Source: Deltaproteobacteria bacterium
GTDB lineage: Bacteria; Desulfobacterota; Desulfobulbia; Desulfobulbales; SURF-16
NCBI GenBank assembly: GCA_016219175.1
Contig: JACRCD010000025.1
Location: 62,001-126,000, forward strand
Length of the DNA: 64,000 bases
Direction of reading: 5' to 3'
The position numbers and the translations under genes were made by a program. Position 1 is the first letter of the stretch; every line of letters starts with the position of its first letter. The notes under the pieces were generated by a model. The model worked only from the letters and a program-made list of their open reading frames with translations. It made no database searches and had not been told where the DNA came from. Positions 47,415 to 52,812 of this stretch are shown here, piece by piece.

Positions 47415-47675
47415 TCAGTGGTGATGATGATCGTGCCCGTGATGGTGCTGGACAGCCCCACCCAGACTCTCCAGCGCCGTGTTCAGATATTTGTCGGCCT
47501 TGGCAAGTTTAGCCAGGGCCTTTTCGATGGCCTCGGCCGCCTCGGTTTGTCCCTCTTTTTTCGCCACCTCCACCCATTTCTGGAATTCATGCTGGTGGCT
47601 GTGACTGTGCTCAATCCAATGGGGGATGAGAACCCGTAATTTTTCCAGCTCAGAAAGATCTTTCTTTTCAGACAT
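47415..47675 (-). CDS. Small protein with histidine-rich C-terminus, CooT partner
   Basis: 86 residues from ATG 47675. A helical body with IPHWIEHSHSHQHEFQKW near 17-36 (several potential metal His) and an Ala/Lys-rich helix leads to a tail GGAVQHHHGHDHHHH with eight His in the last ten residues, a likely Ni/Zn/Co binding site. It overlaps the upstream cooT by 8 bp, so both act in one pathway, probably nickel storage or delivery for hydrogenase or CO dehydrogenase. The upstream ATG at 47690 is less likely. Confidence 0.82.
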   Translation of the reverse strand: MSEKKDLSELEKLRVLIPHWIEHSHSHQHEFQKWVEVAKKEGQTEAAEAIEKALAKLAKADKYLNTALESLGGAVQHHHGHDHHHH

Positions 47676-47877
47676 TTTTTTCCTCTCCAAGGGGGGCCAG
47701 CGTCACGGTTCCCCCCATGAAATCTATTCTTTTGACAAAGGCGGAAGGGATAATCCGGGGCTCTTCAAACAGCGTGCTGACCCGGATCCCGCCCCCGGCT
47801 GCCTCAAGATAGGTCACATTGTCCATCACGGTTTTGGTTGTCCCGTTTTCCTCATACACCACGCTCATCTGGCACAT
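47668..47877 (-). CDS. cooT: CooT-family nickel-binding protein
   Basis: 69 residues beginning MCQMSVVYEENG, the family signature, with Cys2 the known nickel-binding residue of CooT dimers; a small beta-barrel fold with VMDNVTYLEAAGGGI and IIPSAFVKRIDFMGGTVTLAP. In carboxydotrophs CooT helps insert nickel into CO dehydrogenase. No CODH or hydrogenase gene is in this window, so the target is open. The ATG is preceded by GGAGAATT. Confidence 0.88.
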   Translation of the reverse strand: MCQMSVVYEENGTTKTVMDNVTYLEAAGGGIRVSTLFEEPRIIPSAFVKRIDFMGGTVTLAPLGEEKNV

Positions 47878-48454: not shown

Positions 48455-49147
48455 TCATCCGCCAAGCCGCTCGTCGGTCATGATCCTGCCGTCCCGCAGG
48501 GTGAGAATGCGCTGGGCCCGGCGGATCACCGCCGGATCATGGGAAGAAAAAACAAAGGTGGTTTGCAGTTGTTGTTTTAAGGCGGCAAACAGGTCGATCA
48601 GCTCTTCACCTGTTTTTGAATCGAGGTTGGCGGTGGGCTCATCGGCCAGGACAACCAACGGCCGGCTGACAATGGCCCGGGCCGCGGCCACCCTCTGCTG
48701 CTGCCCGCCGCTCAGCTGTCCCGGCCGTTTGTCCATCAATCGGCTCAGCCCCACACTGGCCAGGGCGGTATTCACCCTCTGCCGCCGTTCGTCCGCCTCC
48801 ACATTCTGCAGCAGCAGCACATATTCCACGTTTTCATAGGCGTTTAATACCGGGATCAGATTAAACGACTGAAAAACAAAACCAAAGGCGCGGCGGCGGA
48901 TTTTGGCAAGCTGCCCGCGCCCCAGCGTTGCTGTGTCCTTTTCCTCGATGAGGATCCGGCCCGAGGTTGGCCGGTCAATGCAGCCGATCATGTTCAGCAG
49001 GGTTGTTTTCCCAGCCCCGGACGGGCCGGCCAGACAGACAAACTCGCCCGGTCCGACGAGCAGGTCCGTGGCCTGCAAGGCGGTGACAGGGGAGCTTTGC
49101 CCGTCGCTGTAAGTTTTCATCACCTGCCGCAATTCAACCAGGGCCAT
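48455..49147 (-). CDS. ABC transporter ATPase, LolD/MacB type
   Basis: 230 residues: Walker [10 protein letters not shown] (41-49), Q-loop [19 protein letters not shown], signature LSGGQQQRV (145-153), Walker [13 protein letters not shown] and H-loop SSHDP. This is the LolD/FtsE/MacB family, which powers mechanotransmission exporters rather than classic transport through the membrane. The partner permease is the next gene upstream, separated by 182 bp that contain a palindromic repeat element. Last gene of the five-gene isoprenoid-type cluster. Confidence 0.95.
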
Positions 49148-49215
49148 GAGGATTTTCCTTCAATTATGATGATCCCGTAAAAAAATCAGCCTGAAGCCGC
49201 CGGATGGCTAAGCAT

Positions 49216-49320
49216 AAAAGTTCGATATACAAGGCGCGGTGGTGTCGCGAAAGCGGAGACGTACATAAGGTACGGCGAGCATTTCGCGATCCAGCCGCAA
49301 CGCAGTAGATCGGACTTTTT
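49216..49320. repeat. About 105 bp imperfect palindromic element (MITE/REP-like)
   Basis: The two halves are mutual reverse complements with scattered mismatches: AAAAGTTCGATATAC at the left against AAAAGTCCGATCTAC read from the right end, and TCGCGAAAGCGGAGACGTAC against TCGCGAAATGCTCGCCGTAC around the centre. Ends are AAAAGT/ACTTTT. Size and symmetry resemble non-coding palindromic repeats. It fills the gap between the ABC permease and ATPase genes. No target duplication is obvious. Confidence 0.75.
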
Positions 49321-49329
49321 GCGACGCCA

Positions 49330-50562
49330 TCAGTTATGGAGAAGCGCCTTGACCGGATCCATCCGGGACGCTTTCCAGGCGGGGTAGATCCCCGCGACGA
49401 TTGCCGTGGCCAGGGTGACCAGGGCGGAACTCACCAGGTCTTCGGCGAGCACATGGGCCTTCAAGACATGGCCGGAGGCGAAATACTGGTTTGCGCTGAT
49501 AAAGCTGCTCAGATCGAGACCATACCTCTGCAGCCAGGAACAGGCGGCGATGCCGGCCAGAAGTCCGAGAATTGTCGCGATGAGTCCCAGGAACAGCGAT
49601 TCCAGCACAACAAGAGAGACAATCGCCGTGGGGCCCGTGCCGATGGCGTTTAAGATGCCGAACTCCCTGAAGCGCTCAAAGATGACCGTGGTCATCGTAT
49701 TGGTGATACCCATGGCGACGATGGCGAAAACAATAAAGACAAGAAGCCCCATGGTGGCGTCGTTGAGTTTGATGAGCTGGTCGAGATCAGGAGCAACTTT
49801 CTGCCAGGAAGAGACCTGAAACAACCCGGGATCGAGCTTTTCCCGTAAAGCCGTGGCCAAGGATTGCGCCCGCTCCGCCTCGGTCAGCAGGGCTATTTCC
49901 GTCACCACCTCGTCCGCCCCCAAGAAATGCTGGGCGGCCGGCAGGGGGAGATAGACATGGCTGCGGTCAAAAGTGGCGAGGTCGGTCTGGTATATGCCGC
50001 CGATCACGAACTTTCTTGTTGCCGGGCGGCCGAGCATGCCCTGGGCCATGAGAACCACCTCATCGCCTGACCGCACCCCGAGGCTTACCGCCAGAGGACT
50101 GCCAAGCAACAGCCTGTCCGCCTCGGCCAGATAGCTCCCCTCCACCATTTTCCGGCCAATGAAGGTAACCTGTTGTTCATCTCCCGGCAGAACCCCGGCC
50201 AGCAGAATCGCCGAACTTTTGCGGCCCGCCAGCAGGAGGGCCGGAGATTTTATCCGCTCGGAAAACCGGGTTAACCCTAGAGTGGCCAACGTTCTCTTTG
50301 CCTCAGCAATATTGGCCATTGGCTGAATGACGGCCGTATTCGCCTCATAGCCCGCCGCATGCACCTGAATCGTGCCCGCATCAAGCCCCAGGGTGCTGCT
50401 GACCATTTCCTTATGCAACCCGGCTTTTAACGCCTGAAAAACAATGAGGCAGAAGAGCCCGAAGGAAATGGCCAAAATGGTCAGCAAGGAACGCCGGACA
50501 TTTCTGCGGATATTACGGAAGCCGATGCGGGCCAGGACAAGGAAGGTCTTCACGCTGATCAC
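49330..50562 (-). CDS. ABC transporter permease, FtsX/LolC/MacB family
   Basis: 410 residues with the FtsX-like layout: cytoplasmic N-terminus (RIGFRNIRRNVRRSLLTI), TM1 about 24-45, a MacB-type periplasmic core about 46-275, then TM2 about 280-305 (ending in ITNTMTTVIFERFREFGILNAIG), TM3 about 318-348 and TM4 about 375-395, ending GIYPAWKASRMDPVKALLHN. It likely homodimerises with the LolD-like ATPase to extract or expel a lipid or hydrophobic compound. Starts with a 4 bp overlap on the methyltransferase stop. Confidence 0.93.
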   Translation of the reverse strand: MISVKTFLVLARIGFRNIRRNVRRSLLTILAISFGLFCLIVFQALKAGLHKEMVSSTLGLDAGTIQVHAAGYEANTAVIQPMANIAEAKRTLATLGLTRFSERIKSPALLLAGRKSSAILLAGVLPGDEQQVTFIGRKMVEGSYLAEADRLLLGSPLAVSLGVRSGDEVVLMAQGMLGRPATRKFVIGGIYQTDLATFDRSHVYLPLPAAQHFLGADEVVTEIALLTEAERAQSLATALREKLDPGLFQVSSWQKVAPDLDQLIKLNDATMGLLVFIVFAIVAMGITNTMTTVIFERFREFGILNAIGTGPTAIVSLVVLESLFLGLIATILGLLAGIAACSWLQRYGLDLSSFISANQYFASGHVLKAHVLAEDLVSSALVTLATAIVAGIYPAWKASRMDPVKALLHN

Positions 50563-51221
50563 TCGGGCTTTCTGGCTTTGAAAAAGGAGACAAGACCATG
50601 GAGATGCGCTTTCTTTTCCACCTCCACGAAACCGGCCCCGCGCATAAAATCGGCAAGCCGGCCCAGCAGGTTATCCTCCAGCTCCGGCTGCAATAACAGG
50701 TAGCGGCCGCCCCAGCCAAGCAACATCCCCATGGCTGTGGTGGGCCGGTCAATATCCGCGGTGAGCAGGAGCCCCCCGGGCCTCAGCACCCGGTACATCT
50801 CCGCAAAGGCCTTTTCCTTGAGCCCGCTGTCTATGTGATGGGTGAACATGGAATTCACTACCCAGTCGAAGGAGGCATCGGCAAAGGAAAGGGATTCGGC
50901 GATGCCGACCTGAAAATAGGCGGGGCTATGTTTTTTTGCCGCTTTTTGGCGGGCAATGGCAATCATGCGCGGCGCCGCATCAATACCGATGACCTCACCC
51001 GGCGCCGTTATCCGCCGAGCCAGCAGCAGGGTCAAACTTCCCGTGCCGCAGCCGATATCGAGAATACGATCCGTATCCTGTATATCCATGCAGGATATGG
51101 TTTTTTCCCTGAACCTGCGCTCCCGGCCAAAGGACAGCTTTTCAACAAGCGGGTCATAGAGCCAGGCCACGTGATTCAGATCCCGCCCCCTGGTGACGGG
51201 ATATTGGTCGCCGTTCATCAT
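50559..51221 (-). CDS. Class I SAM-dependent methyltransferase (UbiE-like)
   Basis: 220 residues: SAM motif I ILDIGCGTGSLT (53-64), motif II VIGIDAAPRMIAIARQ, FADASFDWVVNSMF, and motif post-III EMYRVLRPGGLLLTADID. Closest in style to UbiE/MenG or phospholipid methyltransferases that act on lipid-like substrates. Four bp separate it from the isoprenoid-synthase-like gene and 4 bp overlap it with the permease, so it is central to the cluster. Substrate unknown. Confidence 0.9.
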   Translation of the reverse strand: MMNGDQYPVTRGRDLNHVAWLYDPLVEKLSFGRERRFREKTISCMDIQDTDRILDIGCGTGSLTLLLARRITAPGEVIGIDAAPRMIAIARQKAAKKHSPAYFQVGIAESLSFADASFDWVVNSMFTHHIDSGLKEKAFAEMYRVLRPGGLLLTADIDRPTTAMGMLLGWGGRYLLLQPELEDNLLGRLADFMRGAGFVEVEKKAHLHGLVSFFKARKPE

Positions 51222-51225
51222 GGCA

Positions 51226-52293
51226 TCAAAACTTCTTGGCCGGCATGGCGTCGTGTCCCGGGGAAGTCAAGGTCTGCCGGATATCCTCTTCCGCCGGGAA
51301 AAAGGGCAGGAGCCTCTGCACCCCGCGCAAACGGAAAAGCTGCCGGATGAGCCGCACAGCCTGCTGCCGGTCAAGCCAATAGCCGGCTCGGGCAAGCAGC
51401 TCAAAACCCTGCAGAGCCTCGCCGATGGCGCGCTCCATGACCAGCCCCACGCTGGCCTGGAAGGTTTCTTCAATGGCCGGCCCATCTCCGGAGCGCTCTG
51501 CCAGAGCCTGACCCAGAACAGACCTTTCGTCCACTGTTCCCTCATGGTGGATAACGGAAACCAGATAGTTGTGCCTGCGGTCCCTGAGGTCGGCATAAAA
51601 ATCGGTGAGATCGTCAATAACCTGCAAAGCCATGCCAATGCAGAAAATCCCCTGCTCAGCCAGGACGATGCGTTCACGCTGTTCTTTTTCAACCAGCAGC
51701 GGGGCCACGAAAGAGAGGCAGAGGAGTTTGCCCCCTTTGTACATGTGCACCGAATCAAGAATCGCCGCGGGCGAGATAATCTCTTTCACCCCCCCCTCCT
51801 CCCGGGCCTCCCCCGCGCCGATGGGCACCATGGCCCCGAAGAGGGCAACATTGATGCCGGCCGCCACTTGGCGGTCAACAACCCCGTCATCAACCAGCTG
51901 GTTCATCATCCGGAAAAGAAACCGGTCAAACAGCAGGATATGCATGACGCTTTTAAAACGCACCGCCTCGTCCGGCAGATTCAGGGGCAACATCTCCTTG
52001 TATTCATTGTCCAGCAGATTGTCCGTGCCGGTGACCAACCCCCGCAGACAATGATTGATCACCCCGTAGAGCATGCGCCTTTCCCGGGCAATGCCAAGGG
52101 CCTTGTAAACCGAGAGGAAAAGGATGGAGAAGAAATTCTTCTGGGCATAGCGCGCCATGCCCAGACGTCGTCCCTTGTCCCGGATATACTTCCCGTCCAG
52201 AAATTCATCGAGCAGCAATTGAATTTTTTCCTCTACCTTCCGATGTTCCCGGGCGGCAAGCAGGAAATTTCTAAAAAACTTTATCGACTGCAT
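51226..52293 (-). CDS. Polyprenyl-synthase-like protein (divergent class I isoprenoid synthase)
   Basis: 355 residues, all-helical. The second aspartate motif is intact: QVIDDLTDFYADL with Asp227, Asp228 and Asp231. The first is altered, TGTDNLLDNE (91-95), DNxxD in place of DDxxD. MYKGGKLLCLSF near 184-195 resembles the conserved Lys region of prenyl synthases. It could make or bind an isoprenoid diphosphate, or be a derived family such as a prenyl cyclase. Length is near normal. It lies 6 bp after the ICMT-like gene and 4 bp before the methyltransferase. Confidence 0.78.
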   Translation of the reverse strand: MQSIKFFRNFLLAAREHRKVEEKIQLLLDEFLDGKYIRDKGRRLGMARYAQKNFFSILFLSVYKALGIARERRMLYGVINHCLRGLVTGTDNLLDNEYKEMLPLNLPDEAVRFKSVMHILLFDRFLFRMMNQLVDDGVVDRQVAAGINVALFGAMVPIGAGEAREEGGVKEIISPAAILDSVHMYKGGKLLCLSFVAPLLVEKEQRERIVLAEQGIFCIGMALQVIDDLTDFYADLRDRRHNYLVSVIHHEGTVDERSVLGQALAERSGDGPAIEETFQASVGLVMERAIGEALQGFELLARAGYWLDRQQAVRLIRQLFRLRGVQRLLPFFPAEEDIRQTLTSPGHDAMPAKKF

Positions 52294-52299
52294 CTTCCG

Positions 52300-52812
52300 T
52301 CATCTCCTGTTGCGTAGGGAAGGGAGAAGAAAAGGCACCTTCCGTTTATAGTCGGCAAACACTTCACCATAACGGCGCATCAGATATCGCTCCTCTTTTT
52401 TGAGGTATTGGACCTGCATGAAAAGAAATAAGGGGAAGCTGATATAAAGCATGCCTGGCGAGCGGAATATAAAGATTATAGCCAAGGCGGCCAGATCGTA
52501 GCCAAAAAACATGGGGTGCCGGCACCGTTGGTATATGCCGCCGGTCACCAGCCTTTTCGGCGGCCTGCGCGGGTTGGGCGTGCCTTCGCCGTAGCGGGCA
52601 AAATCCCTGGTAGCCAGGCCGATGCAATAGGCGCCGGCAGCCAGGGAAAGGAAAGAGACCGCTGCCAGCCATGGGGTTGCGGGCAGCTGATCAAGAGTGA
52701 ACAATCTGTCCAGCAGCAACCCGGAAATAATGACGGCGGCAGGGATATAGAGCCAGTAAATCAAGGCATCTCGTACCTGATACTTCCATATATCGCTTTG
52801 GAATAATGGCAT
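52300..52812 (-). CDS. Isoprenylcysteine carboxyl methyltransferase-like membrane protein
   Basis: 170 residues with about four TM segments (near 22-36, 48-66, 104-118 and 120-134) and the ICMT/PEMT catalytic box: LVTGGIYQRCRHPMFFGYDL near 88-107, then KKEERYLMRRYGEVFADYKRKVPFLLP near 138-164. This family methylates isoprenoid- or lipid-linked substrates with SAM. First gene of the minus-strand cluster; the linkage to a prenyl-synthase-like gene makes a lipid substrate likely. Confidence 0.88.
   Translation of the reverse strand: MPLFQSDIWKYQVRDALIYWLYIPAAVIISGLLLDRLFTLDQLPATPWLAAVSFLSLAAGAYCIGLATRDFARYGEGTPNPRRPPKRLVTGGIYQRCRHPMFFGYDLAALAIIFIFRSPGMLYISFPLFLFMQVQYLKKEERYLMRRYGEVFADYKRKVPFLLPSLRNRR

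Follow-up and report, generated by a model that had tools for sequence, protein, structure and literature searches.

A conserved gene cassette linking a divergent class I prenyl-synthase-like protein to methyltransferases and an FtsX-LolD-type exporter in Desulfobulbia

Gene content of the cassette

The window analysed here is a stretch of 64,000 nucleotides from a Deltaproteobacteria bacterium of the Desulfobulbales (contig JACRCD010000025.1, positions 62,001 to 126,000). At window positions 48455-52812 it contains a cassette of five open reading frames, all on the minus strand, which encode two methyltransferases, a synthase-like protein and the permease and ATPase of a putative exporter.

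52300..52812, minus strand: ICMT/PEMT-like membrane methyltransferase, 170 amino acids (Pfam PEMT/ICMT, invariant motifs, solved relatives)
51226..52293, minus strand: divergent protein of predicted class I prenyl-synthase fold, 355 amino acids, with DNxxDxE and QxxDDxxDxxxD motifs (Pfam, fold, hhalign, alignment)
50559..51221, minus strand: UbiE-like S-adenosylmethionine (SAM) methyltransferase, 220 amino acids (Pfam; below NCBIfam cut-offs)
49330..50562, minus strand: FtsX/LolF-type permease with a MacB_PCD periplasmic domain, 410 amino acids, GTG start (Pfam FtsX and MacB_PCD, NCBIfam, solved structures)
49200..49338, strand not applicable: dispersed palindromic repeat between the permease and ATPase genes (matches elsewhere in the genome, hairpin folding)
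48455..49147, minus strand: LolD/MacB-type ATPase, 230 amino acids (ABC_tran; NCBIfam)

The ICMT and synthase genes are separated by 6 bp and the synthase and UbiE genes by 4 bp, and the UbiE and FtsX genes overlap by 4 bp. A sequence-only reading of this DNA had proposed a tight one-strand cluster of five genes; its open reading frames, coordinates, strand and short spacings were all recovered, except that the LolD gene lies 182 bp past the permease gene, across the repeat. The repeat, an imperfect palindrome of about 130 bp that overlaps the very 3' end of the permease gene, is matched about 40 times elsewhere in the genome at 70-95% identity and folds as a long, strong hairpin (z = -3.8). 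In most relatives the FtsX and LolD genes share bases or are spaced by a few bp, so the repeat was probably inserted later and stands outside the pathway.

The ICMT-like, UbiE-like, FtsX-type and LolD-type assignments of that reading are backed by Pfam and NCBIfam matches. The membrane methyltransferase belongs to the ICMT/PEMT family, with the PEMT domain over its cut-off (PF04191, 34.6 bits against 25), ICMT just under it (PF04140, 23.8 against 24), and RHP..GY and EE motifs that are invariant in 10 relatives; its solved relatives are ICMTs, and it misses the prenylcysteine methyltransferase model (36 against 160 bits). The UbiE-like protein matches Methyltransf_25 at 94 bits and Ubie_methyltran at 83 bits, and misses the UbiE/MenG NCBIfam cut-offs (99 against 158 bits for TIGR01934, lower elsewhere). 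The permease has LolF as its closest solved structure and scores 147 bits against the LolC/E equivalog TIGR02212, whose cut-off is 362, whereas another gene of the genome reaches 412. The ATPase matches ABC_tran at 109.9 bits, and its best NCBIfam matches are MacB, LolD and FtsE, all under cut-off. Indeed, all listed NCBIfam matches of the cassette proteins fall short of their cut-offs, and by these scores the proteins appear to be relatives, not members, of UbiE, LolC/E, LolD and prenylcysteine methyltransferase. Housekeeping LolCDE was rejected as an identity for the exporter, as the true LolC/E gene sits elsewhere in the genome.

The synthase-like protein

The central enzyme of the cassette is the most divergent. 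It scores 18.4 bits against Pfam polyprenyl_synt (PF00348), below the gathering cut-off of 27; one member of its family, from the distant clade B described below, passes at 36.6 bits. AlphaFold, from a 10-sequence alignment, gave a model with a pLDDT (predicted local distance difference test) score of 83.6 and the class I prenyl-synthase fold. Foldseek matched this model to 4jyx and 5ze6 with probability 1.00 and template modelling (TM) scores of 0.5-0.6, structures of Ord1 being also among the matches, and hhalign related the family to canonical synthases of the same phylum with E=1.1e-11. These comparisons place the protein, by sequence and model, within the trans-prenyl-synthase superfamily of class I, on a branch that has yet to be named, as the sequence-only reading had anticipated; it is, however, unlikely to be a conventional polyprenyl synthase.

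The reason lies in the active site, for which 22 diverse family members were aligned together with 17 canonical synthases of the same phylum. The canonical set, KRxRP, His, DDxxD, RR, KT, FQxxDDxxD and KxTxP, has as its counterparts in the family (K/R)NFFS, Arg, DNxxDxExK, K(G/T)G, QxxDDxxDxxxD and HNY. DDxxD is present in 17/17 canonical sequences and DNxxDxE in 22/22 family members, which equally all keep the second motif, QxxDDxxD. KRxRP and RR, again found in 17/17 canonical sequences, are absent from the family: at the isopentenyl-diphosphate site (K/R)NFFS and Arg84 replace KRxRP and His, the first K/R being mostly retained. The replaced residues include those that, by analogy with farnesyl diphosphate synthase, would be the individual isopentenyl-diphosphate contacts. 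D91, D95, the aspartates of the second motif, E97, K99 and E162 are invariant in the 22 members.

Because the aspartates of the second motif and D91/D95 are invariant, ionisation of a diphosphate by the protein is plausible; because most of the canonical isopentenyl-diphosphate contacts are lost, chain elongation appears unlikely. An ordinary polyprenyl synthase was rejected for the missing key residues, and a squalene/phytoene synthase or hopanoid route was rejected because PF00494 has no match in the protein, in the genome of the window or in 23 relatives. The activity that we favour is that of a cyclase or prenyl-transferase, and the two ordinary prenyl synthases of the same genome could supply its substrate. 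In insects, prenyl-synthase-like terpene synthases were predicted from the loss of the isopentenyl-diphosphate site, and assays then confirmed them (PMC12376265).

The DNLLD stretch of the protein may resemble the motif found in terpene synthases of the YtpB type (DUF2600).

Conservation and neighbours of the gene set

The gene set was followed in other genomes, and the five families do stay together; homologues are not confined to unrelated contexts. In 9 loci from metagenome-assembled genomes named Desulfobulbaceae or Deltaproteobacteria the order ICMT-synthase-UbiE-FtsX-LolD is the same and the flanking genes vary (L009 and L015 being interrupted by contig ends). Clade A comprises 15 Desulfobulbia-type loci with ICMT-synthase-UbiE-FtsX(-LolD), differing flanks and, in some, a contig end. 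In clade B, spread over many other families of the phylum, the order is rearranged to UbiE-synthase-FtsX-LolD and the ICMT gene is usually absent; identity to clade A is about 30-40% for the synthase, about 40% for UbiE and about 28% for FtsX. Among 40 synthase-family loci, FtsX lies within about 4.5 kb in 31, UbiE is near in 30 and ICMT in 17, including 15/15 of clade A, whereas by our own estimate FtsX would stand near the synthase by chance in roughly 3% (13 LolC/E-type hits per 4.2 Mb). Because the set is kept with changing flanks and, in a distant clade, in a rearranged order, a functional link among these families is strongly supported. Protein distances also track those of the synthase (Spearman 0.73-0.81), a correlation that common ancestry alone would also yield. 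Occurrence is patchy: the synthase family was found in 21/395 genomes of the phylum search, in which three of the weakest matches look like ordinary synthases and are of marginal significance, in 21/258 of the class search and in 2/6 of the genomes searched from the genus to which the window belongs. One scan of genome contigs, made with a single-sequence query, recovered close relatives alone.

That the genes might be accidental neighbours, or a variant housekeeping LolCDE locus beside unrelated genes, is very improbable: FtsX/LolD-type pairs are abundant, with 13 LolC/E-type hits in this genome, yet the set persists in about 30 loci with correlated divergence, chance neighbourhood being rejected by conservation amid changing flanks, and the housekeeping gene occupies another site.

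Clade B adds neighbours of its own, both of them outside the cassette of the window. Nine of its operons (L073:8115-8363, L051, L056, L057, L069, L072, L074, L075 and L076) end with a small lipoprotein-like family of about 80 amino acids that has a signal peptide with lipobox, followed by GCAYR[HY]Y[LM]G[ML]HGP and two CxxCH motifs (di-heme). In operons with a mapped start its gene shares 4 bp with the LolD stop. The family is apparently undescribed, and no match to it was found in the genome of the window. Two other clade-B operons (L047 and L054) open with an upstream gene for a secreted YceI protein, a family whose structures usually hold octaprenyl compounds or ubiquinone-8 (PMC9113575). 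Both YceI and the di-heme lipoprotein are independent pointers to an isoprenoid lipid that is handled in the periplasm.

Other homologues of the synthase occur in different surroundings. At L048:7632-10960 a gene for an MMPL-family transporter adjoins the homologue in place of FtsX-LolD. A paralogous branch in L050, L052, L053 and L055 has no such transporter and lies beside genes that inspection of their sequences names as an HtpG-like chaperone and an oligopeptide-type ABC transporter. The plasmid scan gave a single lone homologue, of 302 amino acids with DNxxDxE and QxxDDxxD kept (L088:11854-12762), in the mobilizable Fusobacterium varium plasmid AP017969.1, where it stands between autotransporter genes with an SMODS/S_4TM/RloB defence region further along. 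In the window itself, positions 47415-47690 encode a small protein with a His-rich C-terminus (QHHHGHDHHHH) and no convincing Pfam family, which perhaps binds metal.

A candidate pathway and its relation to known systems

The cassette is real, conserved and built from known kinds of protein, with a distinct enzyme branch. That it forms one pathway which makes, methylates and exports an isoprenoid-type lipid, as proposed from the sequence at the outset, is on balance the probable interpretation, based on homology, fold, motif changes and conserved linkage. It is still the best reading, in part supported: isoprenoid chemistry is supported by the predicted fold, the remote homology and the YceI neighbours. 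In the first step the synthase would bind an allylic prenyl diphosphate from the two ordinary synthases, via Mg2+ on D91/D95 and the intact DDxxDxxxD, ionise it, and then cyclise the prenyl cation or transfer it to an acceptor. An acceptor other than isopentenyl diphosphate is proposed because the site for the latter appears to be lost. The UbiE-like methyltransferase, joined in clade A by the membrane ICMT-like enzyme, would then methylate substrate or product. A dimer of the LolF-type permease with LolD-type ATPases would pull the lipid out of the inner membrane and pass it on in the direction of the periplasm or the outer membrane; the next to act in certain relatives may be the di-heme lipoprotein or a lipocalin of the YceI family, an isoprenoid carrier. 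The chemistry, the order of methylation and the direction of transport are what we infer. Clusters of methyltransferase and terpene synthase are a known logic, with grimophan as precedent (PMC13022886), and prenyl-synthase-like tryptophan transferases offer another (PMC13290415).

Several observations weigh against this interpretation. All family members carry Asn where the first motif normally has its second Asp. The methyltransferases are too generic for prediction of a substrate, and lipoproteins, peptides and drugs are also exported by LolF/MacB-type pairs. LolD does not adjoin FtsX in three clade-A loci of one family (L061, L062 and L086), and no transporter or methyltransferase of the cassette kinds lies near the homologues of L048, L050, L052, L053, L055 and the Fusobacterium plasmid.

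An unlikely, though the best surviving, alternative is prenyl transfer to some small molecule, which could be a peptide or an amino acid, in the manner of ComQ, PalQ, ChrPC and Ord1, whose target is tryptophan; the resulting prenylated signal or natural product would be tailored by the methyltransferases and exported by FtsX-LolD. The Ord1 matches of the model agree with it, that class sharing the fold, a non-isopentenyl acceptor and a Gln before the second motif (PMC13290415), and ABC export of small products is common. The Gln, present in the cassette family, is nevertheless found in all canonical synthases too and is not diagnostic; no precursor-peptide gene was seen within the tightly packed operon, a point that bears on encoded peptide acceptors only, and no small conserved open reading frame free of heme motifs was seen adjoining it. 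The YceI and MMPL neighbours likewise favour a lipid. Doubtful to a greater degree is a polyprenyl diphosphate synthase that still elongates chains despite the changes in its active site, and whose unusual side chain, of a special quinone for example, the UbiE-like enzyme would methylate after attachment. Homology to polyprenyl synthases is remote but clear, the UbiE family works on prenylated quinones and a di-heme lipoprotein would suit a redox lipid; on the other side stand the loss of KRxRP and RR, the change of His to Arg, the two ordinary synthases already in the genome and a cassette that has no UbiA-type prenyltransferase or ring-forming gene. Slightly less probable again is a non-catalytic protein, an isoprenoid-binding scaffold or sensor within a system of lipid methylation and export. 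Every member is altered at a normally conserved position of the first motif, and PgrF is a methyltransferase-like protein with a merely supporting role in a terpene cluster (PMC13022886), but the invariance of the remaining metal-binding acidic residues and of E97, K99 and E162 is typical of a maintained active site.

For the lipid pathway that we prefer, no description of the gene combination was found in the databases and open-access papers searched, in line with the sequence-only reading, which had recognised no pathway. More tentatively, and with considerable doubt, an undescribed pathway around the DNxxDxE branch may yield a methylated terpenoid lipid that a dedicated LolF-LolD-type machine exports towards the outer membrane; tied in one clade to a di-heme lipoprotein or YceI carrier, the product would be an isoprenoid that these anaerobes export and that is redox-active or orders membranes. 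To our knowledge, dedicated isoprenoid-lipid exporters are little known in Gram-negative bacteria. The cassette is common to many sulfur-cycle bacteria and, if the proposal is true, would provide a new enzyme reaction, a test case in which a Lol-type machine carries a non-protein lipid, and an unknown compound to look for among the lipid biomarkers of sulfate reducers and related anaerobes.

The cassette resembles several known systems in part. With canonical trans-polyprenyl diphosphate synthases (PF00348; FPPS, GGPPS, IspB) the family shares the fold, FQ/LQxxDDxxD with a following Asp and, in most members, the Lys of the KT motif; it differs in DNxxDxE for DDxxD, in the loss of KRxRP, RR and KxTxP, in Arg for His, in the score of the window protein under the Pfam cut-off and in the linkage to methyltransferases and an exporter. 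The insect and fungal prenyl-synthase-like terpene synthases likewise have the prenyl-synthase fold, substituted isopentenyl-diphosphate contacts and metal motifs that are kept; no close sequence relation to them was shown, and the cassette synthase is bacterial, altered in its first motif too, and part of an operon with a Lol-type exporter. ComQ, PalQ, ChrPC and Ord1 share the fold, the Gln before the second motif and a non-isopentenyl acceptor, the last proposed for the cassette, whose synthase keeps the second motif intact with the first altered and has no precursor peptide gene beside it. In the methylated-terpene clusters of sodorifen and grimophan/chlororaphen, SAM methyltransferases also adjoin a synthase of class I whose Asp motif is unusual; the enzyme families are others, and these clusters are not known to include a dedicated exporter of the LolF-LolD kind or a membrane enzyme resembling ICMT. 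Finally, the LolFD/LolCDE and MacB exporters share the MacB_PCD and FtsX permease family, with LolF as best solved relative, and a LolD/MacB-like ATPase, whereas the cassette proteins score far under the LolC/E and LolD equivalog cut-offs, are separate from the genome's own LolC/E and are linked to lipid-type enzymes.

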